From positions 58,396,861 to 58,460,860 of the forward strand of contig OY365808.1 in assembly GCA_959347315.1 (NCBI GenBank): 64,000 nt of DNA, in the 5' to 3' direction. Made by a program: the position numbers and the translations under genes. Below, one piece after another: positions 7,949 to 56,573 of this stretch (its first letter is position 1; each line of letters begins with the position of its first letter). The notes below the pieces were generated by a model. It was given only the letters and a program-made list of their open reading frames with translations. It was not told the origin of the DNA and ran no database searches. The stretch is from Bimastos eiseni (lineage: Eukaryota; Annelida; Clitellata; Crassiclitellata; Lumbricidae).

Positions 7949-9368
7949 CTGTTGACATTTAATCAATTGCAGACGACTAAAAGTACAATTAAGTAATTAG
8001 TTACAGGATAAAGTCATCAATCAATCAATTGATGAAACCATTGAAACATTGAACGAGCGAACGAATGAACGACTATATGAAGCAATCAATCCTTCAATCA
8101 ACCAGTCGCTCATTAAATAAATGCACACAGAGACTCATTACTCATTCAACGAGTAATCAATGCTCTTCACCATTGAAACAAAATAGTCAAAAGAGAGTCT
8201 CATGAGCCCTCTGACTTAAGCTCAGACTTCTTCTTCAGATAAATAACTCCAAGAACCTATTACAGAGTCTCAACGAATGACAATAATCGATCAAAATTCA
8301 CGCGTGACCAACTGAAACGCATTTAGAAGAAATTGAAAAAATAATTCGGCCATCTTGGTCACGTGCGCTTTGATATATCGTCACATAAAAAATATTCCAT
8401 GAGCATTGTGCATTATGTAATATTTATATAAACTTCATTATATACCTGTATATTAGGACTGTACCGAGTAATTTTCACTAATCGGCCAAATATGAATAAT
8501 TGGACCAACTATTCGATCGAATACGAATACGAATGGTGCACGAAATGGGTTCCCGTTCATTTCGTCGCAGATCATTTCGTCGCTTTTTAAAAACCAGATT
8601 AACCCTGACCCTAACCTTAAACGACCCTCACCAGGGGCGCCCAGGTAGAGGGGGGTCCGGAGGCAAATGCCTCCAATTTCAAGTAGGAGGGAATTGTTTG
8701 CATCTTAAGGGGGGAATATCTTGCCTTCACGGCATTTAGGACCCCGGGGGTTTGCCTCCAGCGCTCAGAGGGGATTGACGCCTCTGACCCTCATAACCTG
8801 ACCATAATCGACCCTCACTGCGTAAAACCTGACCATAATCGACCCTCACTGCGTATAACCTGACCATAATAGACCCTCACCGCGCATAACCTGACCCTAA
8901 CCGATATGCGACGGAATGAATTGAGACTAAATGATCTGCGACGAAATTAACGGTCATCCACAAAATGGGACTATCAGCAAATGTCATAATGTAAATGAAA
9001 GCAACAGCATCAGTTCAGTTAATTTAATACTAAAAGTAAACAGTTAACTTCACGTAATTTTTATATCCTTCTGCCAGTCTGCGTAAATTAAGAATGGAAC
9101 TAATTTAACTTAACTTAGAAACTGCTGCACTGCGATACCGTGGTACAAACACTGAAGAATTACTTCAGTCCACTAAATATAGCAGAGGTCGCTTGTGCAG
9201 AAACAGATGTCACGTGACCACTATTCGTATTCGGTCCGACAACCGCTATTCGGCCGAATACCGAATAGTTATTTGGCCAACTATATATCAATCTTTCACA
9301 TAAATGAGAGAAAAAACGAGCGAATGATCGATTGTGGTATATACGACACAATCAAATCTCTCTCTCTT

Positions 9369-12264: not shown

Positions 12265-14091
12265 TATTATTATTATTAGTTGTAGTAGTAGTTGTTATTG
12301 TTGTGGTGGCAGTGACTGTAGTAGTGTAGTATTAAATATTAGCAGCAGAGGTGGTTGGTGTAGTAGTATTACTAGTAGGAGTTGGTCTAATAGTGCTACT
12401 AAGATGATTTAATAAGGAGACCTGCAGATGCATAAGGACACATACACAGACATACAAAGACACAGACAATATGTTCATATAGACAAAAAAGAGTTCTGAC
12501 GTCAGTGGGTGCACGTTCATTGTTTTTGAATAGGTACAAGCAGACAAATAGACAGACAGACAGACAGACAGACGAAACACACACAAGCAGGCAGACAAAA
12601 ATCGTTTCTAGTGTGACAAACACCTGTTCATGCGTTTGAAAAACCCGGAATTGCATCTGGTGATGAATTTCCGGCTCTTAATATCAGTTCTTTTGTCAGC
12701 GAAATCAGATCGAGGCAATGATAATGACAAAGACAAAAACAGAAACAGCGAGAGAGAGAGACAGGGACAAAAACAGAGAGATAGAGAGTCGTAGAGAGAC
12801 ATACATGCAATCAGAATCAGAAGTAGTAGGGTACGAAACTAATTGCAGAAAGCCATAATATGATGGAATAGATTCAATAGACTGATCTAATAGATTAACT
12901 GAGTAATAAAGAGTCTTTTAATGATATGACCCCATTGAAGTCATTATCTGTTATCTTTAATATATGTCTACACTTTTTGTGGTCATTGAATGCGTCTCAC
13001 TTTGTTTCAATGCAATGATCTTTATCAATTCTCGAGTTAAGAATCAATTTAGAATTTCTATTTTTCTAATATAATCCACTTGAATTGAATCTTTGTCATT
13101 TCCATTGGTCGTCACCCACCTGAACTCTGTTCCGTCGGCTGGATGTGATAATCCTTCGATTGATGAAGGGTCTACTCGCCAACCCTGCAGGGTTCAAAGG
13201 TCGATCCACATCGGTTGTGACTGGCTCTGGGAGGTAATCGTTTCCGAGGTCCACCCCTGAGTAGAGGGTCCTTGCGATGAGAGCGTAGAGAACACAAGTT
13301 ACGGTCAGAGGCAGAAAGTAGAAGACCAACAGATCCGCCATGTAGTAGACGACGTACTGGTTCCGTGGTAGCTTGAACGTACACCGGTGGATGTTGACCC
13401 CGTGGGCCAGCTGGACTTGGGTCGTGGTGGCCAGCCACATCCAAGGGCCGCAGTAGACGACCCCGAACAGCCACAGACCCCCGATGATCCTCTTGGCTCT
13501 TCTGACGGTGCACAGTGACTGTATCCTCATCGGATGACGTACAGCCACGTATCGTTCAACGGTGAACGCAATCATCGACAGAGAGGAGACGTTGATGGAG
13601 AGGTACTGGGCGAAGACCATCACCGAACACCCGACCGATCCAAAGGCGTATTGATCGACGATCAGGAAGCACTCCACCAAGGTCGGGATCGATGCGAAGG
13701 TCAACAGAACAAGGTCAGCCACCGCTAACGACACCAGATAACAATTGGTCGATGTGTGCATCGTACGTATCTTCAGGACGACGAGGATGACCATCACGTT
13801 TCCCACGAGACCGAAGATGAGTAAGACCCCGATGGAGAGGGAAGCAACAATCCGGAATTCGATTCCGTAGTATTCAGCCTCTTCCAACAAAGACGACGAG
13901 TTACACGTGACCCAAACAGGAAGTGCGTCATCACTTCCGTTTACGTCGGAAGAGGCGAAACGGTCGAGCTGAGGATCATAGGTGCCGATCAGGTGGTTGT
14001 CGGATGCTGGTGATGCTGAGGGAAGCTCAGAAGATGCTGCGGTCGACTGATCTTCCATTAAGTAATTGCAATTGTAATTAGCAACTTCCAT
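7616..14091 (-). CDS. Thyrotropin-releasing hormone receptor-like GPCR (two coding exons, 434 aa)
   Basis: Rhodopsin-family neuropeptide receptor of the plasma membrane. Exons 13120-14091 (residues 1-324) and 7616-7948 (325-434) join in phase 0 at CAG|GTGGGT and CAACAG|GTG. N-glycosylation sequons are at N51 and N64. TM1 is about 81-106 (GN at 97-98) and TM2 117-140 (LAVAD at 122-126). Cys155 and Cys237 are the extracellular disulfide pair. The DRY position is ERY at 179-181, TM5 has Pro261, WLPY of TM6 is at 340-343 and NPILY of TM7 at 377-381. The closest match I recognise is [33 protein letters not shown], the IKMLAVV start of TM6 and YLNSAINP of TM7. The intron just before TM6 is, as I recall, also where vertebrate TRHR is split. 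The start ATG at 14091 was chosen because upstream sequence is not receptor-like. Stop TAG (7616-7618) is followed at once by AATAAA. The C-tail is basic and Leu-rich. Confidence 0.93.
8634..8795 (+). repeat. Dispersed repeat copy A1 (GGGGGTCCGGAGGCAAATG family)
   Basis: About 160 bases matching, in opposite orientation, 19268-19424. Shared blocks include GGGGGGTCCGGAGGCAAATG, CCAATTTCA-GTAG, CTTAAGG-GGGAATAT and GGGGG-TTTGCCTCCA. It encodes nothing recognisable. Probably a non-autonomous mobile element or a piece of a larger one; unclassified. Confidence 0.75.
8792..8903 (+). repeat. 31-bp tandem repeat, about 3.5 copies
   Basis: The unit TAACCTGACCATAATCGACC plus CTCACTGCG repeats three times with few differences, then degrades into ATAACCTGACCCTAACC. 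It directly adjoins repeat copy A1. Confidence 0.85.
9371..9448 (+). repeat. (TGTC)n followed by (TC)n microsatellite
   Basis: Compound simple repeat. Similar (CTGT)n tracts occur at 10279-10319, 12140-12200, 12549-12575 (as CAGA), 16548-16572, 24750-24850, 59761-59840 and 60645-60672. All produce spurious Ser/Leu/Cys-rich frames. Confidence 0.95.
12218..12290 (+). repeat. (AAT)n microsatellite
   Basis: AAT/TAA trinucleotides flanked by TAG/TAGTAG-rich degenerate repeat from about 12060 to 12400. Confidence 0.9.
13120..14091 (-). CDS. TRHR-like receptor, coding exon 1 (N-terminus to intracellular loop 3)
   Basis: 324 codons encode the 80-residue extracellular N-terminus, TM1 to TM5 and most of the third intracellular loop, which has an RRNR basic stretch near its end. 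It ends at a CAG|GTGGGT donor. An open frame continues upstream to 14262, but that stretch has no receptor character and is probably 5' UTR. Confidence 0.93.
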
Positions 14092-17000
14092 AGCGCCTGC
14101 TATAAAACACAAGTCATCGTTAGATGACGCTCCTAAACCGATCCGTAATGAGGCCGATATCGAGAAGATCAGTCTGTATGTTGAGATCAGGGATATACAC
14201 AGCTGTCGATTTAGTTCGTAGTTCGTTGGGATAGAAAAGAACTGAACTGAAACGATAAGCATCTGTCAGGCTATATGCAGAGGCGTTATATAAATCGAAT
14301 GGATTTAGCAAATAATCCTTTGTTTGTTAACTGGTTTGGCTGACCGTCTCCCACACAACGCACACAATGGAAAGGAAACAAAGGCAGACAAAGACAAAGC
14401 TACGCTAGATATAGACGATAGAACTTAGTAGTACATTACATAATATATGAGTAATGCTTTACATCACTTGCACAAACTTTAGGAAGAGCAAATTGACCGA
14501 AAGACAGATGGGATCGTTTATTCGTACCCGTCGTCACCATCCTATTATGACGAGGGATTTCTTTCGACCACTAAGATGTCTCATGCTTTCTGATTATATC
14601 TGCAATGTCACATACCACTCTTCAATTCCGTTGCAAGCATTTAAATAGAATGACGCAGTGTATAGAAGTCGTTCTGTGTCCATCGGGCTCTGGATGTTCC
14701 AGTCCCAAGCGTTTACAAAGAAAGAGGGCAACGCCAATCATCTTGTTATGATACGATGTCGTTAAAAGCAGCCTACTCCCATATTAATTAAGGACTCACG
14801 GGGCCCTAGTCGTCTTAACTTCTCAGTTCTCAGTTCGTATTCGTAAATACAAGATTATTATTTCAAGCACCACTCGAAAGCTAAGCACAGGGCACCAGCT
14901 CATTCAGGAGCGCTGCGTCGCGTCAGAGTGATTTGTCAAAGATAGAGGCAGACAGAAATAGAATCAGACGGAATCAAAGAGAAACCCTGTAGTGTGCTAT
15001 TATGAAGAATCAGTGCAGTACGTCTGACGTGAACTTCGATTGAGTGTAGGCTCCTATAATTCCGAGCGTTGATCAGAAAGTGTATTATTCCGAAATCACC
15101 GTATATATAATTATATAAATTTGTGGCAAATTAGTGCTGTCTACCATAAGTTTATAGAATAAGTTAATGGTCTCTGGCTTCAGTGACCGATAATTAATCA
15201 CCGCATCTCAGTTGAGCGAATGATGATTTTGACGTTATCCAACAAACCGTGCTAATGTCGCAATTCGATGAAAGTCCGAATGCAAAGAAACATTAACTGC
15301 GACGTGGAATTTGACCTTTTTAGGTCTCGGGTTAAACAAGCGGAAAATTGGACGAATTTTGTGTCCGATTTGGTTAATTCTGAAGCGTTTTCATCTGGAA
15401 ACAGGAGATGAAACTAGACATGACACAGTGATTGGAAAGAGGTAATACAGAGGTAAAACCCACGGTTAATGCGTCAGAACAGGTAATAGTACCATGTGGA
15501 AGGTAGCAAAGTCTGCGATTTAGAGCTACCGCGAGCATGGAAAAACAACGCGGTGATTACCGCGGTATCGGTTAAGACTATTCACTCGTGTATTCAACTA
15601 CAGATTAAGCTAAACCAAGTCTGTGCACAATGTTAAGGCATTGCGCTACATGATTGAAGTCATTGAATGTTCGACTTATTTTGACTTCGGTCGAGTATTC
15701 TGTTTATTTAATTATTTAAGGTTTAAACAGAATGGCCCAATTACACACATGAGCAGTAGGCCTATCCTCTCGCTCTCATGCATCTTTGGAATGGGAATGT
15801 TGCCGGGGTTGGAGTGGGAACGAACGTTGTGGGAAGGGGTGACGACAGACCCACGGACATGGGATTGGGATGAAAACAAGTCTTCGTGTCGCTCTATAAT
15901 GGAAACCCCTTTGAGAAGCAATTGGACAATTTGCATCCTCCGTTTCCACCATTTCGCCCTGATTTATCTGCATCTGTCCATCAATATCTTCGGTGTAGTC
16001 TGCTTATGTCTGCGTCTGTCTCTTAGTCCATGGGATTATCAGTATGTATGTGAGTGTGTGTCATTCAGTCTCTACGGCGATAGCGCTAATTACAAACTGG
16101 TAATTAATTAAAAGAACTATACCGTACATTATACCTCAAACGCTGTTGACGAAAGTTCTCTTAATAAAAACGCTTAGTCAAAGCATCGCATAAATCCGGT
16201 CGATGTCTAATCGCTCTATCTCTATCGTTGACTGTCGTTGTTGTTGTTGCTGCTGCTGCTGCTGATGCTGGTGGTCTTGTGGTCATCCTCCGTCTCTCCT
16301 CCTCTCTCCACCCGTCCACGAGATGCTCCATGCGAGTGCATCCACAGTCGTCGTCTTAGACGGAAGAATTGAACGATGAATTCATTCGATGATTCAATTC
16401 TCTCTGGCTATAATTAATCTGCCGTCGATTAATTATGAAGAGATCCCTTTGTTAAGACATCAGTCGATCAATTGGTGTATGTGAGGGAGAGATAGACGCA
16501 GCGACAGACAGAGTTATGCAGACAGAGGCAGGCTGACGGAGACAGAAGTAGACAGACAGACAGACAGACAGAGGGAGTCTGACAGACAAGGCAGACACGT
16601 GCAGCAAATGAAAGGCAAAGACAAACAGGAAGAGATTGGAAGAAAAACATTCGGAAGACATTAACACAATGGAATGATTTCATGTGACATATATAATGTA
16701 GAAACCTCATTAACCGTCTAGTTAACACTGACCTCAATCATTACGACCTTTGACCTTTGCCTTCGTATTGTAGGAACATATTCAATATGTGCTAAATGTG
16801 CCACTTGTTCGCTCAATCGGGAACCTAAGAATGTGTAACTACGTCACGTATATATCTCTGGATATACGGTGCCTATCTAAGAATCACTTGACGCCCTCGG
16901 AAGCCGCTTATGGATTCCAAAAACCATTCATTCATTAGAGCTGCTAACAAATTCTGACCTCATATTCAACTCTAACCCCGCGGTCAAGGGTCATTCTTAG

Positions 17001-17441: not shown

Positions 17442-18032
17442 TCATGTATAGACAAAGACGAAGCATCGCCTTCGTCGCTTCCTCCTTAACGGGTACCTCT
17501 TCTTCGACCGCCTTCGTCCGCCGCTTTGTCCTCGTCGATCCCTTCCTCTGCTCCTTCTCGAGCGAGACGACCCACGCCCTCCTCCTCGGCTGACCTTGCG
17601 GCTGCGCGACCGACCAGACGCCGCACGGCTAGATGACCGACGTCGACTGCGGCTTCTGTCCCTCGCCACCGTGTCCATCTGAAAGACGACGACAACGAAC
17701 AACTCCGATGAGTACCGAAGATTAACGGAAAACGCCGATGATTACCGCTTCATAATGAACTTAAAATAATTTAATGAGTTTAAATTATTTGTATTAGTAT
17801 GGTCTTTGGTATATGCAGTTAGGGCGGACGGAGAACTAGCGGAATGGTTTAAGATGCGATAAAATGGTCTTTAGATGCGATGTTCTAGCGTGTATAATAG
17901 GGTCTATGTGCGCAAACATGCGGCGCGGGTTTGAGATCCTAAAGAGGCGCTAGATAATTCCTATTATCATCTGCCTATTCTGCGTCTTCTGCTACTTCTC
18001 ACCTGATCTTCTTCTTGGTTGTCCGGATCCAT
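17442..18032 (-). CDS. Arginine-rich basic protein 1, protamine-like, two exons (88 aa)
   Basis: Likely a sperm nuclear basic protein that packs DNA. Exon 1 (18003-18032) encodes MDPDNQEEDQ and ends at CAG|GTGAGA. Exon 2 (17442-17678) follows the acceptor CTTTCAG in phase 0 and encodes 78 residues, of which I count 29 Arg. The acidic N-terminus is followed by RSRSRRRSSSR, further SRSR runs, then RRKRRRRCFVFVYT at the C-terminus, with a Cys followed by an aromatic residue. No RRM or other folded domain is present, which argues against an SR splicing factor. Four paralogues follow upstream on the same strand. The promoter has CCAAT, CRE and a TATA-like element (own entry). Gene structure is well supported; the protamine role is an inference from composition, clustering and promoter. 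Confidence 0.7.
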
Positions 18033-18098
18033 GATGTCTTCTCGTTCTCCAGTCTCCGGACTCCGAAGGACTGGACCGTTGGACCCCAGAGGGCGCTC

Positions 18099-18165
18099 CT
18101 TTTACCGATTCAACCGACCCATCCCACGCTCCCATTGGTCAACGCTCCATCCCTCTATGACGTCA
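18099..18165 (-). promoter_or_regulatory. Promoter of basic-protein gene 1: CRE, CCAAT, TATA-like
   Basis: Reading the minus strand there is a perfect palindromic CRE TGACGTCA (18158-18165), then CCAAT (plus-strand ATTGG at 18134-18138), then a TATA-like GGTAAAAG (18099-18106), and the ATG about 67 bases further. The order and spacing recur in the paralogues. Confidence 0.6.
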
Positions 18166-19267
18166 GGGTTGCATATTGTCCTTCGCTTAGCAGCGCCTTT
18201 CCTAATTATTTCCTGATGATATGTTCTAGTTTTTTTTCGAAACCATTTAATTATAAAGTTCTTAATGGAATTCATTGAATAAAAGAAATGAATGTCATTA
18301 GTAGAGATGAACAAATCCAGATACGCAGATATGCAGACAAAGGTTATACGTCGGCGCTATATAAATCTCGATGCCATGCTTCGCCTAAGTCATTTATATT
18401 TCTCTTTCGGAAATATTTCTTACTTCGTTCCACACAATCAGTTTAATATGAGACCTGCATCGTTAAGTAAAGACATCCTTATAACAAGATCTAGTGGCGT
18501 TATATAAATCTAACGAATTCGTGAATGGTTGGCTTTGAACTGTCTTTTTCCCAATCGTTTAAAATTTAAGGTTCATAAATTACTTTCGAATTCATTTAAT
18601 CGATGTAGGTCAACCGCTTCTGTGTGACGAGGAGATCTTGTGTAAACCATTCAATCAAAGTTTGAATTATAGTTAAATTTACAGATTCATATAGCGCGCT
18701 ATCTTCAAAACCTCATCGTCGGCAATCCAGATCTGATACAAGACTGTGGTCAAATGTTTGAACCAAGGGAGAGAAAGCTGTTCGCTGCGAATTGTTGAAA
18801 TCAATTTGCTTCACACAATCTGTCTCTTTCAGAGTCTGTCAGACAGACAGACTGTTCTGTTTGTATGCCGCTCTCTCTATCTCTGTCTCCCTGTGACGTC
18901 AGAAGACTGATTTTTAGATAAATGCTAAAAATGACAGTTCTCTGACGTCAGAGAGGACTTGGTGTTGCTTCTGTAAAACCGTCGTCATGACAATCGATAT
19001 TGATCACGTATACTTGTCCCGATTCTTATGAATAGCAGGTATTAGGCCTATTATTATCATTCTCACTGTTGTTGTTGTTGTTGTTGCTATTATATCATTT
19101 AATAACTTCTATAGCGCCATTGAGGCAAGATCCATCGTTGCTCTGTGTGTTGTGCGTCATCCGTGTTTGAGATTGAGCGTTCTATTCGGTGACACCCGTC
19201 GTTTGTAATCCATCGATTGTGAGTTCGAGTGAAATTATTCGGAATGATGATTCTTGATGAGATTCAT

Positions 19268-19424
19268 GGGTGACAATACCCCCTGAGTAATGGAGGCAAA
19301 GCCCCCGGTCCCAAGGGGATGGAAAGCAAAATATTCCCCCTACCCTTAAGACTAGAAAAGTATCCCCCCTACATGAAATTGGGGACATTTGCCTCCGGAC
19401 CCCCCTATCTGGACGCCTCTTATG
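19268..19424 (-). repeat. Dispersed repeat copy A2
   Basis: Inverted relative to copy A1 at 8634-8795. Both share CCTCCGGACCCCCC, a GGAGGCAAA-CCCCCGG block and ATATTCCCCC-CCCTTAAG, with length differences between blocks. Confidence 0.75.
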
Positions 19425-19871
19425 AGGTTTGCTTATGAAAGGAAGTCAGACGAACAGGACAAGTCCCGTAGTGACTTTGTATTTCTTGGCCTCAGCATAG
19501 GATACGGGTTGAGCAGACATCTTGAAATGTTTGCTCTGGTGGGAGGGAGGGGCGTGAACCTTCGAACTCTCGGTTAAGTATCCATGAAACACTAAATCAT
19601 ATATCGCATCTCTGGATGACTGTAATAAACTGGATGGTTAATGACATGATTGTGAATGACTTTGACCCACTGACCCCACCGAGGCACAGACTCAACTGAC
19701 CCAACTAATCCAGCTAACTCTAAGTGATCTTTATTGACCCACTGACCTCACTGACCCCTGACTCTAATTGATCCACTGACCCCCACAAAAGCTGCGTCAG
19801 AGTGACCATTGACCAGCCATGACACCTGCGCCAGGCCTATATCACATCAATTCCGCATTAATATTATGCTC

Positions 19872-19943
19872 GGGCCCCACCCCTGGGCCCCACCCCTGGG
19901 CCCCACCCCTGGGCCCCACCCCTGGGCCCCACCCCTGGGCCCT
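19872..19943 (+). repeat. 13-bp GC-rich tandem repeat
   Basis: GGGCCCCACCCCT repeated about 5.5 times with almost no divergence, in otherwise AT-rich DNA. It gives Pro-rich spurious frames. Confidence 0.95.
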
Positions 19944-20598
19944 AGCCCCTGCCCCTGCCCCAAGAAGTCAATGGCCCTTGGTCCTGGACACAGGGTTGCC
20001 AACAAGTCTGAGCATTATTAATCCTTAGTCATTGAGCACTGATTACCCTTGCTATAGATTATAAATCATTCTGTTTTATCACTTAGCTTACCTAACTCAA
20101 GGAGCTTTTAAATCAGCCCACATATAAAATATCTGTCGTTTCTCCTACTAATCGTTTAATTAGATTTTGTAATTACAATGCTGATCATCGCCTCATTGGC
20201 TGACACTTATATAGCGCCAAGCTCCCCGCTAGTACAGACCAGCAACTACCCTGAGAAAGTAGTATTTAAGCTAGTGCAGAGCTTCAGTCCAGCGAAGATG
20301 GTTAGAGCACAAGCCACAATAGACTGAAGGGAACATCTTCCTGGATTCAGCCATTCGATCGCTAGTCTTTGCTAAATTAGCATCATAAGATTACACCAGT
20401 AGCAGATCATCTGTCACTGACGTCATCCTGCTGCGATCACCTAGCGCCTAGTAAATACCGTGCAGTTTCTTGTTTAGTTAGTAACCGCATAATTGTATAT
20501 GTCTGGCCTTGTACTCATTAAACTTTATTCAATCGCTCACATGATGAGTTCTATTCTCCGCATCTATGAACTTATATAGCTTCTGTAGATACTCACAC

Positions 20599-20649
20599 GA
20601 GGCCTAGGTTACGCTGCCTGCCAACGGCAGCGGAACCTAGTCGGGCCTC
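20599..20649. other. Strong stem-loop
   Basis: Left arm GAGGCC-TAGGTTACGCTGCC and right arm GGCAGCGGAACCTA-GGCCTC pair over about 20 bases, with one mismatch and a four-base bulge, around a TGCCAAC loop. Function unknown. It lies in sequence with a TATTTAAG box at about 20270 and an ATTAAACTTTATTC stretch at about 20517, so it may be part of an old LTR-like element. Confidence 0.5.
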
Positions 20650-20969
20650 AGTACCGAAGGAGACTCTACAGCTTCTAACTAATGACTTACTTTTAGAAAA
20701 AGAACACTCAGTCTGAATCTCCAGTTACACTTTACTTTATTAACATCTCTCATCCTTCAACGTTCCTTCACAACTGCCGCATTTTTTTTATTAATTACTC
20801 AATTAATTAAAACATCTTCATTATTGCTTTTATTTAAGTATGCCGTGCCGCAATTGGAGCGAGGAGGCAGCCCAGAGGAGGAGAATGAGGATGAGCTAGT
20901 GGTCGCCATTTCTAGAACGTTCTTCTAAGTCCTTTCGGTTGGATGACGTAGTGCATCTGGTGGTGTTGA

Positions 20970-21534
20970 TCAGAGGGACACCCAGCACCTTCTCCTTGTC
21001 CTTCGTCGCCTTCGACCTCGCGTGCTTCGACGGCGCCTGCGTCGTGACCCTCGCCGACCCGAACGATGGCGCCGGCGTCTCCTTGATCTTGACCCGGCGG
21101 GAGCTGACCTTCGTCGGCTCCTCGACCTTGATGCCCGAGGGGGATCGATCGCCAGAGACCCATCGACCGGATCGAGACTCTGATGAGGAGACAAAACGGA
21201 AAGATTGGTGAATGCGATGATACCCTCATAACCTAAGATGATTTCATGCAAATGCTGCTTTTAATGCATGCTACATTACAGAAATGCCTTGGACCTTATT
21301 ATACCAAAGAAATATTAACGATTAAAACGTAAATTTATTTATTAGAATAATCTAATGAAATGAACGTCTATGAATCGATAGTTAAATGAGCAAGATCTGG
21401 ACTTCTATAGCGCCACAATGAACGTTTGATTGATTGATCTGAAAGGCTTCTACGCCAGAGGAGGAGTGTAGGCTTCCTATCTATGTAGAAAGTGAGAGAG
21501 AGAGAGACCAAATACTTACATCATCGTCGTCCAT
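20970..21534 (-). CDS. Arginine-rich basic protein 2, protamine-like, two exons (74 aa)
   Basis: Probable sperm nuclear basic protein. Exon 1 (21520-21534) encodes only MDDDD and ends at a perfect donor GAT|GTAAGT. Exon 2 (20970-21179) follows CTCATCAG in phase 0. It starts SLDPVDGSLAIDPPRAS, then RSRSRRRSAPAG, long Arg runs, and ends TRRRCWVSL. By my count it has 30 Arg and no Lys in 69 residues of exon 2, the most protamine-like of the five. The stop is TGA. AATAAA lies 229 bases past the stop (plus-strand TTTATT 20736-20741). Strongly GC-rich coding sequence stands out from the AT-rich surroundings. CCAAT and TATA boxes and an X-box/CRE overlap lie upstream (own entry). Confidence 0.72.
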
Positions 21535-21612
21535 GGCAGCAGATGTTATGACGTAGTTGTTCGTTGACGTCGTCGTCCTCCTCTCCTCTGTTGACCTTCA
21601 CCTCTCCACCTT

Positions 21613-21696
21613 CTTATATGACCTCCATTGACCTCTCATTGGTCGACAGTCATTTACATCAGCCTTTGTCGTGAGAGTCTAACCTTAGCAACGTCA
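21613..21696 (-). promoter_or_regulatory. Promoter of basic-protein gene 2: X-box/CRE-like, CCAAT, TATA
   Basis: Minus strand order: TGACGTTGCTAAGGTTA (about 21680-21696), which overlaps a CRE half-site and an RFX X-box-like sequence; CCAAT (plus ATTGG 21638-21642); and CATATAAG (21613-21620). The ATG lies 79 bases past the TATA. Confidence 0.55.
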
Positions 21697-21834
21697 TCGG
21701 TTTCCTTAGAAATGCAATTTTATAATCATTGTTGTTGTTCTTCTTCTTCTTTCATTGTATAATTCACATCATTATTATTGTTGTTGTCATTGTTTTTGCC
21801 ATTATCATAATAATTGATGTTATTAGTATTATTG

Positions 21835-21838
21835 CTGC

Positions 21839-21895
<57 letters not shown>
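21835..21895 (+). repeat. (ATT)n microsatellite
   Basis: Pure trinucleotide run that directly precedes the 3' end of the reverse-transcriptase remnant at 21956-23517. This is compatible with a microsatellite-like tail or target for that element. Confidence 0.9.
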
Positions 21896-21955
21896 CCATG
21901 TCCAACTGTTTCAGTGCAGTTATTATTATGAAATTACTATTATTTCAAGTGAAAA

Positions 21956-23517
21956 TTAATGGCGATGTCGTCCGAAGTAACCCTGCTCGTTGGACTTATG
22001 AGCAGCGAAAGTTCCCTTGAAAGCAACTGCGTTGTAGCTTTGAATAGTCATCGAGATGCGCTGGTAGAGGAAAGTCGTCTCACTCTGCTCTCCAGTGACG
22101 ACGCTGAGTTTGTGTCCCAGTTCTGAAAGGAAGCTTTGGCCTTCGGAATTGATGGGGCCAAAGGTTTCGAATGCCACCGGTGTGAAGACGTACGTGGAGG
22201 CTAGCTCGGCGTATGTCTGAGTGTTGAGGTTGTCGCTGCGCCCGCTCTTTGCGACGTTTCTGGCAGATACGACATTGCCATTGTATCTGACACTGTCGCG
22301 TCCCATATCAAGCACCGCCCCGCTCTCCATGGTATATGAGTGAGTCCATCTGGTCTTTTTCCACCAGACCGGGTCAAGCCAATCGGCTCTTTGACAGTGG
22401 GGATCCCTGCACGGATTAGACTCCTATAAATAAGGTCGTGTCTGGGCCAGCGTCCCAGGCCACATGAGAGACCCTGATATCCGTTTCCCTCGATCAGGAC
22501 GCCGCATGGGCAGCAATGAAGTAAACAGACGGTTAACCCAAGTCTGTAACCCACCGCCACCCTCAGGGACTCATCGTCAAGTCTCAGCCCGCAGTTGGTA
22601 ATCGATATGGCTAGGAGCCAGTCGCCTGCGTGTGTTGCTGACACTGCTCTAATACATGCCTGATTCTGGGAATCAGGCATTCTGGTGGCGAGGTCTGCCA
22701 CTCCGAGCTCGATCAAAGGGTCGTCCCATCTTGATTGCTTGTGAGCCCAAGCTCCTTCTGGCTCCGGTACTCTGCTGGTTTCCCTCCATTTGGCCTGAAG
22801 GGTCTCCAGCGCAGGGTCCTTTTTGGGCTTTCCTCACAGAATCCTTGTCTGGAGCATATCAGTGGCTGCGGCCGATACCAAGAAGGCTGGAAGTACCAGA
22901 GAAACCATTGATCAGATGCCCAGTCGTCCTCTTTTGATGGGCAGGGTGGCTTGGAGCTATGCCTCGTCGGTGAGAACAAGATTGAGCACCTCAGCGAGGT
23001 CCACCCTCAAGGCCTTGTCATACTCCTCCAGTCCTTTGTGGCCTTCGCATGGGCAGCTTCTGAGGGTATATAATAGTCGGGTGGCACTCAGCGAGTATCG
23101 GAGCAAGATGAGGGCGTCAAGTGTGGCGATGGACGTTAGTTTTTCCATCATGCGCATTAGCTCCACTGTGCGCGCATTCAAAGTGTTCGTCAAGGCCGTA
23201 TCCGTTGACAGAGGTGCGCCTAGGAGTGTGACCTCTGAAGGGTTAGTCCATCTGAACTGTCTTAATGGTTCGAAGTCTCTCTGGATATCTGCAGAAGTCG
23301 AAATGATCTCGCATTTTTTTCGATTTAGGAAAAGGCCGAGTTTTTCGCATTCGGTTTCGAGTCTGTTTATATCTTTCGCAACCTCTTCCGCCCTGCCACC
23401 TAGTGTTAGGTCGTCCAGAAAACCTACTGTGAGCGGCGATTTCATTTGGATGAGGATGGGCTGTAGAGGGAGACAGAAGCGTAAGGGACCCAAAGGGTCG
23501 CCTTGTTGGGGCCCCAC
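21956..23517 (-). mobile_element. Decayed non-LTR-type reverse transcriptase element with C-terminal nuclease-like module
   Basis: Three frames on the minus strand read as one broken protein. 22957-23517 has the RT palm: GPQQGDPLGPL, then the catalytic box as VGFLDDLTLGG (FLDD in place of YADD), then LNRKKCEI. 22713-22979 is a shifted connecting part. 22201-22716 has GDWLLAI, GLRLDDESLRVAVGYRLG, a Cys/His cluster around CCPCG, KRPDGLTHIPW and LIWDATV. 21956-22330 continues with AFETFGPI and FLYQRISMTIQSYNAVAFKG. The KRPDG to WDATV block looks like a PD-(D/E)XK-type nuclease site, as in endonuclease-bearing non-LTR elements. That reading is inference. Frameshifts show it is not a working copy. 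The RT stops abruptly at the (TTA)n array, so the 5' part is missing or displaced. Confidence 0.75.
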
Positions 23518-23569
<52 letters not shown>

Positions 23570-23929
23570 TATTATTATTACTATTATTATTAATATTATT
23601 TTTATTATTGTTATTATTATTATTACTATTATTATTATTATTAATATTATTATTATTACTATTATTATTAATATTATTTTTATTATTATTATTATTATTA
23701 CTATTATTATTATTACTATTATTATTATTACTATTATTATTATTATTATTATTATTAATATTATTATTATTATTATTATTATTGCTATTATTATCATTAT
23801 TATTAATATTATTATTATTATTATTACTATTATTATTATTACTATTATTATTATTATTAATATTATTTTTATTATTATTATTATTATTATTACTATTATT
23901 ATTACTATTATTATTATTATTATTATTAA

Positions 23930-23986
<57 letters not shown>

Positions 23987-23998
23987 TATTATTATTAC

Positions 23999-24041
<43 letters not shown>

Positions 24042-24111
24042 GCTATTATTATCATTATTATTAATATTATTATTATTATTATTATTACTATTATTATTAT
24101 TACTATTATTA

Positions 24112-24149
<38 letters not shown>

Positions 24150-24205
24150 GCTATTATTATCATTATTGTCGTTGTTATTATTATTGCTATTGCTATTATT
24201 ATTAC
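23518..24205. repeat. (TTA)n / (ATT)n array, about 0.69 kb
   Basis: Near-pure TTA/ATT with regular CTA, TTG and TTT variants. It produces poly-Leu, poly-Ile and poly-Asn frames that are not genes. It abuts the RT remnant at the QQGDPLGPL block on one side and a 16-bp minisatellite on the other. Confidence 0.97.
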
Positions 24206-24280
24206 TCCCTGACACCACCACTCCATGACACCACCACTCCCTGACACCACCACTCCCTGACACCACCACTCCCTGAAGCC
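24206..24280 (+). repeat. 16-bp tandem repeat (CTCCCTGACACCACCA)
   Basis: Four to five near-identical units directly adjoin the (TTA)n array. On the minus strand the sequence beyond (24281-24385) is an open frame containing VQVEVGDEAGHDTRRPQEG, perhaps another fragment of a mobile element. Confidence 0.9.
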
Positions 24281-25690
24281 CTCTTGCGGTCGTCTAGTGT
24301 CGTGGCCAGCCTCATCCCCGACCTCGACCTGCACGTTCTCTGCTGAGAGGCGTAGGACCAGATCGATGACGGAGGCAGTCAACAACCAATCACCAGAGTT
24401 AGAGCTGCTCGTCGTGAGTCCATCAGGTGAGCATCATCTACCACGCTCATTTTTGCGATGAACAACTGCATCGATGTTCTCGGAGTCACATAATGGTCAG
24501 ACAAGGTCATACAAGGGTAAAACAAGGATTGAGCGATGGATTCACAACCGAGGCAGCTGTGATGCAAGACTCATTGCAAGAGGAGTCATAAAGGCCTACA
24601 GCGAATTCCCAGACGAACAATAAGTTCAATTAATCTATTTATTTATTCGCACAATAGCTACCATTGTCTTTCTATCTGTCTCTGTCTGTTTCTCTCTGTC
24701 AAATAGAGACAGAGAGAAATGGATGCCGTGCGAAGAGAGTTAAGAACTCTGTCGTCACTGTGTCTGTCTGGCTGTGTCTCTGTCTGTGTATCAGTCTGTG
24801 TGTCTGTGTGTCTGGGTGTCTGTCTTTCTCTGTCTGTCTGTCTCTCTTCTCTGAGCAGACAAATCAGACAATCTGTTGAAGGCTTGAAACTGCATATGCT
24901 CTTAGCATCGATCGTTCTGATAATGATGTAGCCCTGCCTTTGTTTCACCCTATATATCTGCCTTAACAGCGCCTCCTACCCAACTGCAAGGAGCACGCTG
25001 GCCATAAACTGTCCTCAGTGGGGAGATGAGACGGTGAGAAAGAGAATTGATTGGAAGCCAACCGCCAAGCTAAGAAAATTATGTCGCATTCAGCTCACAT
25101 ATTCGCACTCTCTGAGGCTAGCCTAAGGCACTGCATTTAGTCCTACCTGTGCATGGTGGCATAAGCAGCGAGTTTAATATGTATGCGCCATATTAATTAT
25201 TGCTCCTGGTCCCTTCCTTTTAGAAAGAAATAGGCCAACTGACACTAGAATGAGGATTGATTTTGAATTGATTTAATATTGACATACATGTATGAGTAAA
25301 GTAACCCCAGTGTTTTCGCTGTGTGGAGATCACTGCTTGCACTTGATTTAACCATTTAGTTCTTCCAACACCTAAGTTAAAGTATGGTCTAACTGAAAAG
25401 ATTTGGTGGAGGTCAGAGAACTAAAAACAACTGAGCAATTTTAGATTCGTCTATACATCGATCAAAGGCTTAATCTGCAAAACTTCGACCTAAGTTGAAT
25501 CCTACATGTAAGCTCGTCTAAGCCTAAAAGAAGTTGACACAAGACAAAAACCCAGTTAACGATTTATTAACCAATCTTCAAATCCTTTACTATTATCGTC
25601 CATTATTCGAGTTTTAGTTTAACCGAGAGTTCAACGATCCAGTTCTCCATCCAACCCATTCGCTGTCATCGGATGGCCGCAGCGACCATT

Positions 25691-25990
25691 CTAGCGGTTG
25701 TAGCAGGTCTTACGTCTGATGCGTCGCTTCCTTCCCTTCTTGTAGAAGTCCGTGTATGGCACGCGGGTGTGCATGCGCCCTCGGCCACTCTTCGACCGAC
25801 GGCCGCGGCTCCTTCGACCCCTTCGACCCCTTCGTCGTCGTCGTCTGGACTTTCCCTCACCGCCGCCAGCCGACGCCCCCGCCGAGCGACGGCGACTCCG
25901 CGACCTGCCCTCCATCTCGTCCTTGGCCACCTGCTGGACCTCCTCCTCTTGGCCAGCCTCGCTGCCGATCGATGCGCCTCTGCGACCCAT
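25691..25990 (-). CDS. Arginine-rich basic protein 3, protamine-like (99 aa)
   Basis: Probable sperm nuclear basic protein, the longest of the cluster. Its coding part lies wholly in exon 2 (acceptor ATCCTCAG at 26006-26007, ATG at 25990). A non-coding exon 1 from about 26463 to 26370 with donor ACG|GTGAGG fits the TATA position and contains no ATG. The N-terminus MGRRGASIGSEAGQEEEVQQ is mixed acidic. RSRSRRRSAGA then opens the basic domain, with Arg/Gly/Ser/Lys runs, a less basic insert MHTRVPYTDFYKK, and the end RRKTCYNR. The insert and the higher Lys and Gly content set it apart from genes 1 and 2. AATAAA lies 123 bases past the stop (plus TTTATT 25563-25568), with TAACTGG just beyond, as in genes 2 and 4. 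Confidence 0.65.
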   Translation of the reverse strand: MGRRGASIGSEAGQEEEVQQVAKDEMEGRSRSRRRSAGASAGGGEGKSRRRRRRGRRGRRSRGRRSKSGRGRMHTRVPYTDFYKKGRKRRIRRKTCYNR

Positions 25991-26370
25991 GACTGCTCTG
26001 GAGGCCTGAGGATACACAAGAACACGAAGTCTAAACAACGAAAAGAAATTAGAAGAATAAGAAATGAATCTCAGGAACGAAGACTATCTATCACTTCTTC
26101 ATCTCTTGTCTTTGTTACGTATCAATAAGAATCTGAAGTTGACTTCAAAAGCGACATCTATTCAAGAGACGCATCAACGACCATCCACAGTTGGACTAAT
26201 GTAGCGCTAAGATAGTGCCTCTCCTAAGTGACCCTATTTCAATGGAACCCATATCTATAACCTAGGACATATATACACCTATATTCTGATTCTCGATAAG
26301 CCTAATTTATGTAGCGCAATTTGCGCATAATACGCCTAGAAAGAGGAAGGGGCGTTGTAGGGCCCTCACC

Positions 26371-26463
26371 GTTCGCTCTCTTTGAAGAATGTCCCTCGGG
26401 TGAAGGCTGTCCGTCCGTTCGTCGATCACTTCTTCTCCTTCCGTCTTCCTCCGTCCGGGTGTT
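26371..26463 (-). other. Probable non-coding exon 1 of basic-protein gene 3
   Basis: Starts about 30 bases past the TATA box, has no ATG, and ends at 26370 with ACG|GTGAGG. The next good acceptor in the correct place is at 26006-26007. It is predicted from promoter and splice signals only. Confidence 0.4.
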
Positions 26464-26489
26464 AGAACTGTGGAGAAATCGACCCGACC

Positions 26490-26550
26490 CATATATATCT
26501 AGGTCAAGGACACACATCGCTATTTTCATTGGTAGGGCTCTCGATGACGT
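26490..26550 (-). promoter_or_regulatory. Promoter of basic-protein gene 3: CCAAT, TATA, CRE-like
   Basis: Plus-strand ATTGG at 26528-26532 (CCAAT on the minus strand), TGACGT at 26545-26550, and TATATAT at 26490-26499. The CCAAT-to-TATA distance is about 29 bases, as in genes 1, 4 and 5. Confidence 0.5.
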
Positions 26551-26625
26551 TTCACTTTTTGTGACCTAGTCAGAGGACCTAGTCAGCAACTACCGGTGAC
26601 ACCCGAGAGACAAGCTTCCTCTTCC

Positions 26626-26708
26626 AGAACAATCGACTGATAAGCGGCGACCCAGATGGCCTGATAACAGATCCGTTGGCAATGCCAATGATGAATAATA
26701 CCATTTGT
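26626..26708 (-). repeat. Dispersed repeat copy B1
   Basis: About 70 bases are ~90 percent identical, inverted, to 41421-41490. Common blocks include CGGCGACCCAGATGGC and GGCAATGCCAATGATGAATA. Both copies adjoin ATT/AAT-rich repeat. It encodes nothing recognisable. Confidence 0.75.
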
Positions 26709-26808
26709 GACAAAATAATAATAATAATAACAACAATAATGATAATAATGATAATATTAATGATAATATTAATGATAATAATATCGACATCAGCAACAAG
26801 CAATAAGT

Positions 26809-27890
26809 GTTGTTAATTTGAGATATTAGCCTCTTATGCTAATCCTAATTCTTACCTAGATACAGACATAATTTATTTTGTAGATAGCAATGTCTTATAA
26901 TTTACATCAAACGGATAATGACGTCATAATAGACCATAGCGAATTCATTGTCTCTCTATTTCCATCCATCACTGTGTTAATGCTTCTCTCCGTCCTAGGT
27001 TGCCAAAATTAACTGGCCCTCGTTTGATGAGTTTAAAATGTGCGACCAAGTGTATAATTATCTCAACTTGTTTTTATTAAACGGTGCCAATTATTAAAAG
27101 GAAGCTCAGAATCCGGAACCAGTTTGACTACAGTCGCTCAGTTTTAACAAATTAGTTGAGACAGAAGAACATCATCATCTCATCTTATCCGTTAAGAGTG
27201 GTTTAGATGGAAGACAGTCGGATGGTTACGGTGGAAAGTGGTGGAAGAGTAGGCCTATAGGTCAGCACTCGCGGATAAATTGGTGCCCTTTGCTTATCTA
27301 TTGGCTATGGCGCTTTAGAAATCTGAAGTTTACGAATGCGGACACTAGTCTGGCGCCGAAACGAAAAGCACAACCATTGCGGACTTGATTTGGTAGCAGC
27401 ACCGGTGAATAAGCAGGACTCCCTTCATGGCGTGACTTTTGTGGGTGATGAGAATTAGGGCCTACGTCACTATTTCTACAATTATTGTCTTCTTAATATT
27501 TGACCGTTTGGAATTTAGGAAACTCTACAGTCAACACGAAGACAGCATTCGTGAGGAAACGACTTCGAATCTTCACCGTTTCACATGATCTATGACTAAC
27601 TCTACTCTGACTTCTGTTGACGTTGTGAGACGCTTCAAGCTGTAACAATTAGGCCTAGATAGTGATTATTATATTATCTGAGTGTTTTGTATCAGTTTTT
27701 GCTCTGTCCTTTATGAGTTTTTGAAAAGGCACTAGGTTAAGACCTACATTTGTTTATTTCCCAGTTTCTGTCTCTACTGAGCTGTCTATAATTACGGTGC
27801 AATATAAATGTGTAGCCTAATGAGGCCGCTTCCTAATAGCAAAAATAATCCTTATAATGAAATCAAACACCAGTGAATTCGCCAGTTACA
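26809..27890. other. Intergenic sequence between basic-protein genes 3 and 4
   Basis: No gene seen. A GGCGCTTTAGAAATCTG core at about 27309 belongs to the dispersed GCGC-core family. The polyadenylation signal of gene 4 lies at the right edge. Confidence 0.5.
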
Positions 27891-28024
27891 AAATTTATTG
27901 ACCACAACATCCCGTTACTATTTTTATAAATCGTAATTTCTTCTTCCCTCCTTAAAGTTCGCCGTGACGGGCCTAACCGGTGCCCCCCAAGACTCTGGAC
28001 CGACCCATGTTGGAGCGATCGGTC

Positions 28025-28300
28025 CTAGACCTTGGCGTAGCAGCGGTGCTTCGGTCTTCTCTTATGCTTGCGTCCGTAAAGCATCGTGTGAGCCCGTCGA
28101 ACGCGGCGTCGACGACCCTTTCGTCGTCTGCTCCCTCGGCGTCGACACCCTCTTCTGCGGCGGGACTTAGAACCCCCTCCTCGGCTGGAACTCCGCCGTC
28201 GGCTGCCGTTCCCTTTTCGGCTTGAGCTTCGTCGTCGACTCCTCGACCGACCGGTCTCCGCGTCCGAAGCCATCGAAAGCGAGTCCTCTTCGTCAGCCAT
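28025..28300 (-). CDS. Arginine-rich basic protein 4, protamine-like (91 aa)
   Basis: Probable sperm nuclear basic protein. The ATG (28300) immediately follows the acceptor TTTGCAG. The protein starts MADEEDSLSMASDAETG, then RSRSRRRSSSRKG, RRR/SSSRGGG blocks, an internal Cys in RRRRGCRRRG, an aromatic/His-rich stretch HTMLYGRKHKRRPKHRC, and the end YAKV. The promoter at 28607-28662 implies a non-coding exon 1 ending at 28534 (AAG|GTAATC). Alternatively, a five-codon exon MAVPE at 28364-28378 with a weak donor could join in frame. AATAAA lies 126 bases past the stop (plus TTTATT 27894-27899) with TAACTGG after it. Confidence 0.7.
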   Translation of the reverse strand: MADEEDSLSMASDAETGRSRSRRRSSSRKGNGSRRRSSSRGGGSKSRRRRGCRRRGSRRRKGRRRRVRRAHTMLYGRKHKRRPKHRCYAKV

Positions 28301-28606
28301 CTGCAAAGCAAGACCCCGAGAGCATCATAAATGCGCTATAAAATTAAACGCTGCTGCGAACACCTCTGGAACTGCCATCGTTTACGACGAAATCAAAATG
28401 GCTGACGTCTGTGGATGATGCGCTTCGAGGGTGAATGTTTAATAAATTTCTTTATTTAGATTATAGATGCGGAATTTGTTTATTAATTCGGATGATGAGG
28501 GATTATTTAATAAGAGTTTTCGCCTATGATTACCTTTTTATTTTCCGTTCTTTCTTTGTTGTTGTTTCGTAGAGATAAGGATCGGAGTTTAGCCGACCCC
28601 TCGGAA

Positions 28607-28662
28607 GATATAACATCAGGCGGATCGAGGTGAGACGTGATTGGCTGAGCGATGATGACGTC
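28607..28662 (-). promoter_or_regulatory. Promoter of basic-protein gene 4: CCAAT, TATA, CRE-like
   Basis: Plus-strand ATTGG at 28640-28644, TGACGTC at 28656-28662, and GATATAA (minus TTATATC) at 28607-28613. Order and CCAAT-TATA spacing match the paralogues. Confidence 0.5.
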
Positions 28663-29290
28663 TTGTAAAGACCAAACACAGTCCTATTGTCCAGACACGA
28701 AAATTAGTTCAGGCTATTAGTCTCTGATGGGCCAGGCTAATTATGCATAGTTTGACCGTTTTTTAAATTATCAATAATAGCCATTGATCGGGGTCTCGGA
28801 TCGAGACCTTTTGAGTCATTTATTAGCGTGAATGATATGTTATTTAGACGCTGATCGGTGACAAAATGTAGAATTTTGCAATAGGAAAGTTGGGCAACGC
28901 CGTTACTTTGATGACTATGAGTTAATTATGCCCATGACGGTGGATTCGACTGCTAACTACAAAACCACTGTCCTTAGTCTAGCAGTGCCAGTCCCAAGCA
29001 TGGGAGTAGGAGGAGGGCGACGCTAATCATCATACAGGCAGGAGAGTATTATCGTTTATGACTGTTTGTGGGCGTTCTGAATATATTCTTTATTTTATTG
29101 TATTTTATTTAAGTATTTATGAAGCGCCTCTGTAGTGTGAACTGTTCAGAGGTGCTGCCAATGCAGAAGGCGCCCGAATCTAAGGATTTATGGATCAGCG
29201 ACGTCGGATGTCTATGTAGGTTGGGTTTACAAGAGATTCACACAAACACTGTGTGTCATTTAAATTGTTAACGGCAGAGACTTGATAATT

Positions 29291-29486
29291 TAATTGGGAC
29301 GTAATTGAGACTCTATTTTGACCTGATTGGGACTTAATTGGAACATAATTGAGATGCAATTGGGACTTGATTGGAATTTAATTGGAACATAATTGAGACT
29401 CAATTGTGACTTGATTGGAATTTAATTGGAACTTAATTGAGACTCAATTGGGACTTGATTGGGACGTGATTGAGACTTAGTTAGGA
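29291..29486 (+). repeat. Degenerate short-period repeat (AATTGGGACTTG type)
   Basis: About 200 bases made of ATTGGGACTTGATTGG, ATTGGAACTTAATTGAG and similar units with a roughly 12-base step. Old, diverged tandem repeat. Confidence 0.85.
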
Positions 29487-30045
29487 CTTAATCAGTTCTT
29501 CATCTTTGGTTTTGTTAATTTAGGTAACAAGCAATGTGACAAATCGTCATTTAGGGTCGTTTGTCTCTTGGATTTATGACGTCATCTCTACCGATCTGTA
29601 AGTGTTTGATACAGATCTTATCTCCCTAAACCTAAAGCTATGTGTATAGGAGGCTGTATGGGGTTAAGGCCGATGTTATGAGTTAATGTACAACTAACTA
29701 TTCAATGCACGAGTATGCTACTTCTAAACTGAGCATGGTATTACAGTTCTACTTCATTTTGGGCTCAGTTGATTTGGTTCTATGTAATTTAAATCTCAGA
29801 AAAGCGCTACGAAGATTGTAATTTACATTACACTACATGTCTACCTATCATCTCTTATCTATAAGAAATGAGACCGAATTTTTCCAGACCACTTGTTTTT
29901 ATTCATCCCCGATTCACCACCCTACCACCGACAATAGACCCTAAACGTTTCTCTTTTTCTTCATCTCTGGTTGCTCCTATCGATCCCAGCAGCAGTCCTT
30001 GTCCTTGAGGGGACCCCTCTACCGACCGACCGACGACCGATCGAT

Positions 30046-30440
30046 TTAGGAGTAGAAGTAGCATCTCCTTCGGGTGCAGCCGACCTTCCGACTGCGGCGT
30101 CGCCTTCGTCCCCTAGCCGACCTCCTTCGTCCCCTAGCCGACCTCCGTCGTCGCTTGCCTCCACTCCGGCTGCCACGTCGTCGTCTCCTTCGTGACCGGG
30201 ATGTCGCCGCCTTGGCCGAGGCTCCCCTTCGCCTGCTGCGGCTCCGACCGCGCGTCGCAGTCGTCGTCTCTTCGTTGGCATCTTCATCCATTTGGGTGTC
30301 CTGAGGTACATAAGTAATCACAACACGTATAATTAGGGCGATCTACGCCGAACGCCACCGATTCTATCTAACGCCTGCTTGAAATCTACGCCTATTAGAA
30401 AAAGTACTGGTCTACTCACTTCTTCCGTTTCCTGCGCCAT
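30046..30440 (-). CDS. Arginine-rich basic protein 5, protamine-like, two exons (91 aa)
   Basis: Probable sperm nuclear basic protein. Exon 1 (30420-30440) encodes MAQETEE and ends at GAA|GTGAGT. Exon 2 (30046-30300) follows GTACCTCAG in phase 0. It starts DTQMDEDANEETTTATRG, strongly acidic and Thr-rich, then RSRSRRRGASAKAATS, long Arg runs with GRRRSAR repeats, and ends CTRRRCYFYS with two Cys. The acid-then-arginine layout suggests a removable propeptide, as known for precursors of some protamines. AATAAA lies 143 bases past the stop (plus TTTATT 29898-29903). The best promoter of the cluster lies upstream (own entry). Confidence 0.72.
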
Positions 30441-30506: not shown

Positions 30507-30606
30507 TTTATTTAAGACCTACGTCCCAAGACCCAACGATCGCATTGGCCAACCGTTACATCACAATTCGATGACGTCAGGCGTCTGTTCTCGTTGCTAT
30601 GGTAAC
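30507..30606 (-). promoter_or_regulatory. Promoter of basic-protein gene 5: RFX X-box, CRE, CCAAT, TATA-like
   Basis: GTTGCTATGGTAAC (30593-30606) is a consensus-grade X-box for RFX factors. TGACGTCA (30572-30579) is a perfect CRE. CCAAT lies at 30544-30548 and TTAAATAAA at 30507-30517, 67 bases before the ATG. In mammals, CREM (CRE) and RFX2 (X-box) drive post-meiotic spermatid genes, protamines included for CREM. Confidence 0.65.
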
Positions 30607-50819: not shown

Positions 50820-50945
50820 TGAGTGGCGCTATATGAATTAGCATTAACGATTACGACGCCTGTCCGATCGGTCTGTCAATTCCATCGATTCATCAATGCA
50901 CTGTTAACTTCTGATGCATTGATTCATTCATTAAAACAAACATAT

Positions 50946-53980: not shown

Positions 53981-53984
53981 GATG

Positions 53985-56418: not shown

Positions 56419-56573
56419 TATTGTTTACGTAGATGAAGACGTTGAAATAAGATTCAATCGTCATCAAGCAATCAGTCATACAATTAAATCTTCCCAATGA
56501 CAGTCTACACTGAACAGCTGAGATTGCTAGAGTTCGCCCTGGTGGGGCAAGTATATCGAAAAAAATTTATACT

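Follow-up and report, generated by a model that had tools for sequence, protein, structure and literature searches.

In a 64,000-nucleotide stretch of the genome of the annelid Bimastos eiseni (contig OY365808.1, here C3, positions 58,396,861 to 58,460,860; hereafter the window, whose first letter is position 1), we find a cluster of five minus-strand genes, g1 to g5 (17442-30440), whose predicted products have the design of precursors to sperm nuclear basic proteins (SNBPs) of the protamine type, which is what they probably are. These products, of 88, 74, 99, 91 and 91 aa, respectively, are small, Arg-rich and strongly basic, with clustered Arg and no globular domain, which are sequence features of protamines (P-type SNBPs). 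Each joins an acidic leader to a basic domain through the same heptamer, RSRSRRR, and all five genes carry a common proximal promoter module.

The coding region is split by a phase-0 GT..AG intron in g1, g2 and g5 (324, 340 and 119 bp), where exon 1 encodes 5-10 acid-rich residues: MDPDNQEEDQ in g1 (18003..18032; donor CAG|GTGAGA), MDDDD in g2 (21520..21534; donor GAT|GTAAGT) and MAQETEE in g5 (30420..30440; donor GAA|GTGAGT). The second exons of these genes, with the stop codon counted in, lie at 17442..17678 (g1; MDTVARD-RSRSRRR...RYPLRRKRRRRCFVFVYT), 20970..21179 (g2; SLDPVDGSLAIDPPRAS-RSRSRRR...RRRCWVSL) and 30046..30300 (g5; DTQMDEDANEETTTATRG-RSRSRRR...RRRCYFYS). A search for a coding exon 1 in g3 and g4 returned none; their start codons lie in the second exon, and the coding exons occupy 25691..25990 in g3 (99 aa; leader MGRRGASIGSEAGQEEEVQQVAKDEMEG, tail KTCYNR) and 28025..28300 in g4 (91 aa; leader MADEEDSLSMASDAETG, tail HRCYAKV). 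From donor and acceptor sites, we infer that each of these two genes has an exon for the 5' untranslated region, at 26368..26475 in g3 (no ATG; donor ACG|GTGAGG; upper bound approximate) and at about 28532..28585 in g4 (donor AAG|GTAATC). The missing coding exon 1 and modestly similar tails hint that g3 and g4 might form a subgroup.

In all five proteins, a leader with a net charge of -4 to -8 precedes the heptamer, and the basic domain that follows comprises 52-74 aa with a net charge of +29 to +37 and 45-56% Arg+Lys. Arg makes up 29-41% of the whole protein, Arg-Ser (RS) or SR dipeptides number 9-17 per protein, and Cys occurs only once or twice. Six-frame translation of the window contains RSRSRRR at five sites, all on the minus strand and one per gene, while the shorter RSRSR has extra copies once in g1 and once at 52816. 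Among the 70 pairwise comparisons of heptamer codons, 20 were identical and 50 differed, with 76/210 bases changed and no residue altered, so conservation of the heptamer acts at the protein level. Since Arg-rich sequences match one another easily, shuffles preserved composition while keeping leader and basic domain separate; none of 20,000 yielded a heptamer common to all five proteins, and none of 20,000 placed a Cys followed by Phe, Trp or Tyr within the last 8 residues of all five. All ten protein pairs scored above their shuffles (z scores of 2.9 to 5.7, with at most 8/1000 shuffles reaching the observed score), and tail-against-tail comparison gave z scores of 4.1 for g2-g5, 3.3 for g1-g2 and 2.8 for g3-g4.

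Searching the five coding exons against Pfam returned no domain over its cut-off, including protamine, winged helix (PF00538), RRM and HMG box; the lone match at an E value of 1 or better was Spem1 on g2, which at E 0.31 falls far short of its cut-off. No signal peptide is apparent in the five proteins, the highest 11-residue Kyte-Doolittle mean within the first 40 aa being 0.68, and all five are expected to be disordered. These results bear out the observations of the initial annotation, which had placed five genes for proteins of 74-99 residues at the same coordinates, with a phase-0 intron wherever exon 1 is coding (3/3 introns agree), and had described the acidic N-terminus, the shared RSRSRRR, the near-terminal Cys-aromatic motif and the lack of a globular domain. 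Its proposal that these are SNBPs stands insofar as the genes form a real family of small Arg-rich proteins, each bearing an acidic leader and lacking any recognised domain, for which SNBP precursors appear to be the simplest explanation.

Upstream of the genes, and beyond anything the initial annotation had described, lies a module composed of a cAMP response element (CRE), or a half CRE with flank, followed by a CCAAT box. On the minus strand, g1 carries the CRE palindrome TGACGTCA at 18158..18165 with CCAAT at 18134-18138; g2 carries ATGACGT (half CRE plus flank) at 21691..21697, CCAAT at 21638-21642 and a TATATAA-type box near 21618; g3 has ACGTCAT at 26544..26550, CCAAT at 26528-26532 and TATATAT near 26497; g4 has ACGTCAT at 28655..28661, CCAAT at 28640-28644 and TATAT near 28612; and g5 again has the palindrome TGACGTCA, at 30572..30579, with CCAAT at 30544-30548 and TTAAATA near 30515. 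The g5 promoter additionally contains the X-box-like sequence GTTGCTATGGTAAC (30593..30606), the sole place in the window that fits GTTGCYATGGYAAC perfectly and a putative RFX site.

The CRE-like sites were first spotted by eye, and we scanned k-mers in five 160-bp windows that end at the start-site regions already placed, such that the scan was blind to the motif and not fully blind to the choice of windows. ACGTCAT/ATGACGT ranked first of 8003 heptamers, being present in 5/5 promoters and 20 times in the whole window (p 2.8e-7, uncorrected), as compared with a best value of 6.8e-6 among 500 random draws, each of five windows with similar GC. The hexamer ACGTCA also ranked first (p 1.7e-5); the random sets reached a minimum of 4.4e-7, with a 1% point of 3.9e-5, and because at least one random set beat the observed value, the hexamer result alone is weaker. 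The top 8-mer, ACGTCATC, was found in 4/5 promoters, and the next independent motif, recovered as ACCAAT and CCAATG, in 4/5 each. A CCAAT box lies 5-60 bp downstream of the CRE in all five genes, an arrangement that occurs at 9 sites in the 64 kb, these five included, when both strands are considered. A first-order Markov null produced 2.9 +- 1.9 CRE-CCAAT matches (at most 8 in 100 runs) against 11 observed, where the null and the observed counts both score overlapping palindromes twice.

Between the five copies, intron similarity over the 10 pairs was not clearly above that of shuffles (z -1.5 to 2.5), which points to ancient copies instead of a recent tandem array. The 3' regions were likewise little alike (g3-g4 z 4.8, g1-g2 z 2.7, other 8 pairs at most 1.9), and promoter likeness is mostly limited to the short motifs, with g1-g5 (z 9.5) and g3-g5 (z 2.6) as the two highest-scoring pairs. 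Considering the age of the copies and their distinct tails, the five proteins are probably not interchangeable.

A sixth gene, which the initial annotation had not covered, was found elsewhere in the genome. Among the rows that the g3 protein returned from its own genome, which comprises 660 Mb in 118 contigs, a very weak one (E 4.29; C5:31784612-31784836) led us to a solitary minus-strand gene (C5:31784624-31785264) for a 74-aa protein. Its acidic exon 1, MEDYEDLDL, is followed by a 416-bp phase-0 intron and by an exon 2 with an acidic stretch and GRSRSR (EEEEEQGDDIEARGRSRSR) followed by an Arg-rich domain, a layout that supports that of the family. The core reads RSRSRMA in place of RSRSRRR, and the 220 bp upstream of the start codon contain an inverted CCAAT box and GTTACCTTGGTAAC. 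Further RSRSR frames were absent from the 60 kb around this gene.

Own-genome searches were run at E 10 with g1, g2, g3, g5 and the sixth gene and at E 0.001 with g4, and each query found itself. Seven other rows were returned, at 50.79 Mb (E 6.4), 64.37 Mb (0.252), 37.84 Mb (6.39) and 60.19 Mb (3.46) of C1, 21.49 Mb of C3 (1.22), 1.48 Mb of C2 (5.34) and 31.78 Mb of C5 (4.29); when read, six of the seven lacked the family design, and only the C5 row was a member. Because even the neighbours g1 to g5 were not recovered from one another, the absence of further members from these searches is a weak negative. Low-complexity GGA/AGA tracts broken by stops, and not family members, account for the Arg-rich frames at 31.789-31.790 Mb, close to the sixth gene, and in the right flank of the window (L007); half of one flank (L006) consists of N.

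A likely relative in another organism, also new with respect to the initial annotation, came from the protein databases. Used alone, g3 had no match among 4307 candidates that reached E 0.01; a profile of the five proteins, scored on the 8000 best candidates, gave four weak matches, and just one of these, the 86-aa metagenomic protein P0121, resembles a relative. It comprises an acidic leader, GRSRSRS, a basic domain and the tail KRYPVRRKRRRRCFVWVAARK, which may be compared with the g1 tail, KRYPLRRKRRRRCFVFVYT. Over its full length P0121 scored z 8.4 against g1 (0/1000 shuffles), and tail against tail z 11.5 against g1 (0/2000 shuffles), 3.1 against g2 and at most 0.7 against g3, g4 and g5; of the five tails, only that of g1 has a cross-species match. 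When P0121 was compared with the whole 660-Mb genome, one of only two rows was g1 (56% identity over residues 18-82). With caution, we regard P0121 as a putative g1-type orthologue. Immediately ahead of RSRSR, g1 has Asp and g2 has Ser; the position is taken by Gly in P0121, the sixth gene and g3, g4 and g5. The initial annotation had also suggested that the family is fast-evolving, for which the evidence is divided: the paralogues are saturated outside the core features, whereas P0121 keeps the C-terminal block of g1 almost unchanged.

Among the remaining profile matches, P0124 has RSRSRRR after an acidic stretch, lacks an Arg-rich domain and scored z 0.7 to 4.2 against the family; it was not counted. 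P0122 and P0123 were discarded on inspection, and a scan of viral contigs with P0121 gave no relative.

Several observations weigh against the protamine assignment or against parts of it. No homology to any named protamine was detected, in searches that are insensitive for low-complexity Arg-rich proteins. The match to P0121 is statistically weak (profile E 0.46, composition-adjusted BLASTP E 0.11, own-genome E 1.21), probably as a result of the correction for composition, which takes away most of the signal, and its other genome row, at E 1.19, is a stretch of an apparently unrelated 1007-aa frame on C8. The sixth gene has no Cys, and no ACGTCA occurs within 220 bp upstream of its start codon, which is evidence against either feature being universal in the family. 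With regard to the promoters, 8/10 pairs are not beyond shuffles once the short motifs are set aside (z at most 1.6), and the shared promoters could in part have been inherited through duplication. The CRE serves many non-testis genes. A strict TATA pattern lies downstream of the module only in g2 and g3 (2/5), with looser boxes in g4 and g5 and none convincing in g1, and TATA boxes are described as not enriched at CREM-regulated promoters in the available portion of PMC3091680.

Among the explanations that compete with final protamines, the one we take most seriously is compatible with that assignment for the rest of the set: one or more of the five may be transition proteins, or other transient nuclear proteins of spermatids that take part in the histone-to-protamine exchange and are later lost. 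We regard this as a possibility, albeit a minority one. That the cluster holds five diverged copies points to divided roles, and mammalian TNP2 shares a cluster with PRM1-3 (PMC9917458, available text). The sequence offers nothing that separates the two roles, while the dominance of Arg over Lys and the near-terminal Cys would favour final protamines. The RS dipeptides and RSRSRRR recall RS-domain proteins, raising the alternative that the genes are, or are fragments of, SR-protein-like RNA-processing factors. We consider this very improbable, as the Pfam search gave no such domain, the five genes each possess a separate promoter module as well as a complete open reading frame (ORF), and the Arg occurs in runs and not as RS repeats. 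The initial annotation had proposed that expression as part of larger SR-protein transcripts with an RRM exon would speak against its reading; the sequence gives no sign of such transcripts, and no RNP1-like signature was found in the six frames of the window by a crude regular expression.

The order of an acidic leader and a cationic domain, in clustered copies, is also that of secreted cationic antimicrobial peptides with acidic pro-regions, but none of the five proteins as modelled has a hydrophobic N-terminal stretch and each has only 1-2 Cys, making such peptides an even more remote prospect. Protamines may also be cut from a linker-histone (H1/protamine-like, PL) precursor, as in bivalves or spiders, and such an origin is reported for other invertebrates in the part of PMC11607694 available. 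In the cluster, however, the ORFs are all complete and none includes a winged helix, and the 7 linker-histone matches listed for the genome are spread over contigs C14, C7, C4, C16 and C1, with none on C3; the 5/7 that were read in frame (L021 and L024 left out) are Lys-rich, so that we give this origin very little weight, less than to antimicrobial peptides. Finally, the high GC of exon 2 (0.62-0.66) lengthens ORFs and could in principle generate chance reading frames with no gene behind them. A common heptamer with diverged codons, a common tail, splice phase and promoter module, and the same layout in the sixth gene make this explanation practically negligible.

Taking g1 to g5 as protamine precursors, we chart a tentative model for their production and use. 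In spermatids, the common proximal promoter (CRE and CCAAT, mostly with a TATA-like box) would turn on the set jointly. The acidic leader would mask a polycation of about +30 through synthesis and import until the protein reaches the nucleus, and would then be clipped near its border with RSRSRRR, by analogy with known protamine precursors. During deposition, the RS dipeptides of RSRSRRR would be phosphorylated, presumably by an SRPK-type kinase; the Arg-rich domain would neutralise and condense the DNA, and the near-terminal Cys-aromatic tails may cross-link protamines through disulphides. As regards the regulator, we infer that CREM is used at g1 to g5. CREM is essential in mouse spermiogenesis and acts in haploid spermatids; its consensus is a CRE or half-CRE, and many of its spermatid sites are half CREs (PMC3091680, as far as the accessible text goes). 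Protamine precursors that lose an N-terminal part are described as common, in invertebrates as in vertebrates, and some protamines contain Cys (both from the accessible part of PMC12216123).

In its most far-reaching form, the model would have one cluster hold a set of protamines that is ancient and whose members, every one with a conserved tail of its own, cannot replace one another; a CRE-CCAAT spermatid promoter would drive them, with an RFX-type X-box in addition at g5 and at the dispersed sixth gene. As a whole we think this conjunction rather unlikely. If true, the upstream logic would be the same as that of mammalian spermatid genes, implying that the control of protamine genes predates the proteins themselves or re-evolves more readily than they do, and disulphide-capped subunits in a defined mixture would make up sperm chromatin.

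Comparable systems are known in several lineages. A cuttlefish protamine precursor has a leader. More broadly, cephalopod protamines (squid, cuttlefish, octopus) are Arg-rich, as are g1 to g5, and have an N-terminal part cleaved in spermiogenesis, as described for squid in the available text of PMC12216123, a step only proposed for g1 to g5; Eledone is described in the accessible material as having a Cys protamine with interprotamine disulphides, comparable to the Cys tails of g1 to g5. They differ in that the searches described above found no homology and in that their description, in the portion available, mentions no acidic exon-1 leader, RSRSRRR or Cys-aromatic tail. A single cluster likewise holds the mammalian genes PRM1-PRM2-PRM3-TNP2, whose products are several small, basic sperm proteins with moderate homology to one another (PMC9917458, in part), and mammalian P2 undergoes precursor processing in the text available, as proposed here for g1 to g5; the latter, in contrast, have no Pfam protamine match, lie as five genes on one strand and include no recognised TNP counterpart. 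Several SNBPs also coexist in Drosophila (ProtA/B, Mst77F and others), some of them tandem-amplified (PMC9917458, same portion), yet these are derived from HMG-box proteins, and g1 to g5 have no HMG box. Among annelids, the literature searched, as far as its text was available, yielded one SNBP of Chaetopterus variopedatus and H1-like proteins only; the former, compared by description, has been likened to the Arg-rich C-termini of chordate protamine-like proteins. Protamine genes are reported as a cluster in mammals, and SNBP genes as tandem arrays in Drosophila (PMC9917458, accessible part); the kind of system is known, while the present family, its cluster and its promoter sharing look undescribed in the searchable literature, which is thin on older mollusc and annelid protamine work. 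The compact cluster with its CRE-CCAAT promoter offers a direct test of CREM/RFX-type control of protamine genes in spiralians, and the exon-encoded acidic leaders a simple system for the masking-and-clipping step.

The cluster is flanked by genes of other kinds. On one side it adjoins a minus-strand gene of at least two exons (13096-14262 and 7616-7966) for a G-protein-coupled receptor resembling thyrotropin-releasing hormone receptors, whose closest relative among the matches listed is P0001 (72% identity); in a FastTree tree built from the query and 57 of the 120 matches listed, it fell among sequences that include those of the annelids Paralvinella and Capitella, a placement that makes an annelid source likely and on which a mollusc origin was set aside. 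On the other side lies a minus-strand nuclear receptor (38923-44081), which we take to be HNF4-like, with a zf-C4 exon at 43641-44081 and exons for the ligand-binding domain at 38923-39957. Scanning the window for Rfam families and tRNAs yielded 0 matches. The interval between g2 and g3 (21956-24200) contains a degenerate element with a reverse-transcriptase match (RVT_1, E 5.6e-07) and, after it, a long TTA microsatellite; a second reverse-transcriptase fragment (RVT_1, E 1.3e-13) lies on the plus strand at 37834-38469, near the nuclear receptor ORFs. Long tandem-repeat arrays at 50823-52224 and 53910-56497 yield spurious ORFs of several hundred residues. Elsewhere in the genome, two Lys-rich linker-histone H1 frames with identical translations lie about 7.7 kb apart at 26.34-26.35 Mb of C14 (L019, L020). 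The window ends at position 58460860 of the 58853360 of C3, about 0.39 Mb from the contig end, and the cluster is perhaps near a telomere.

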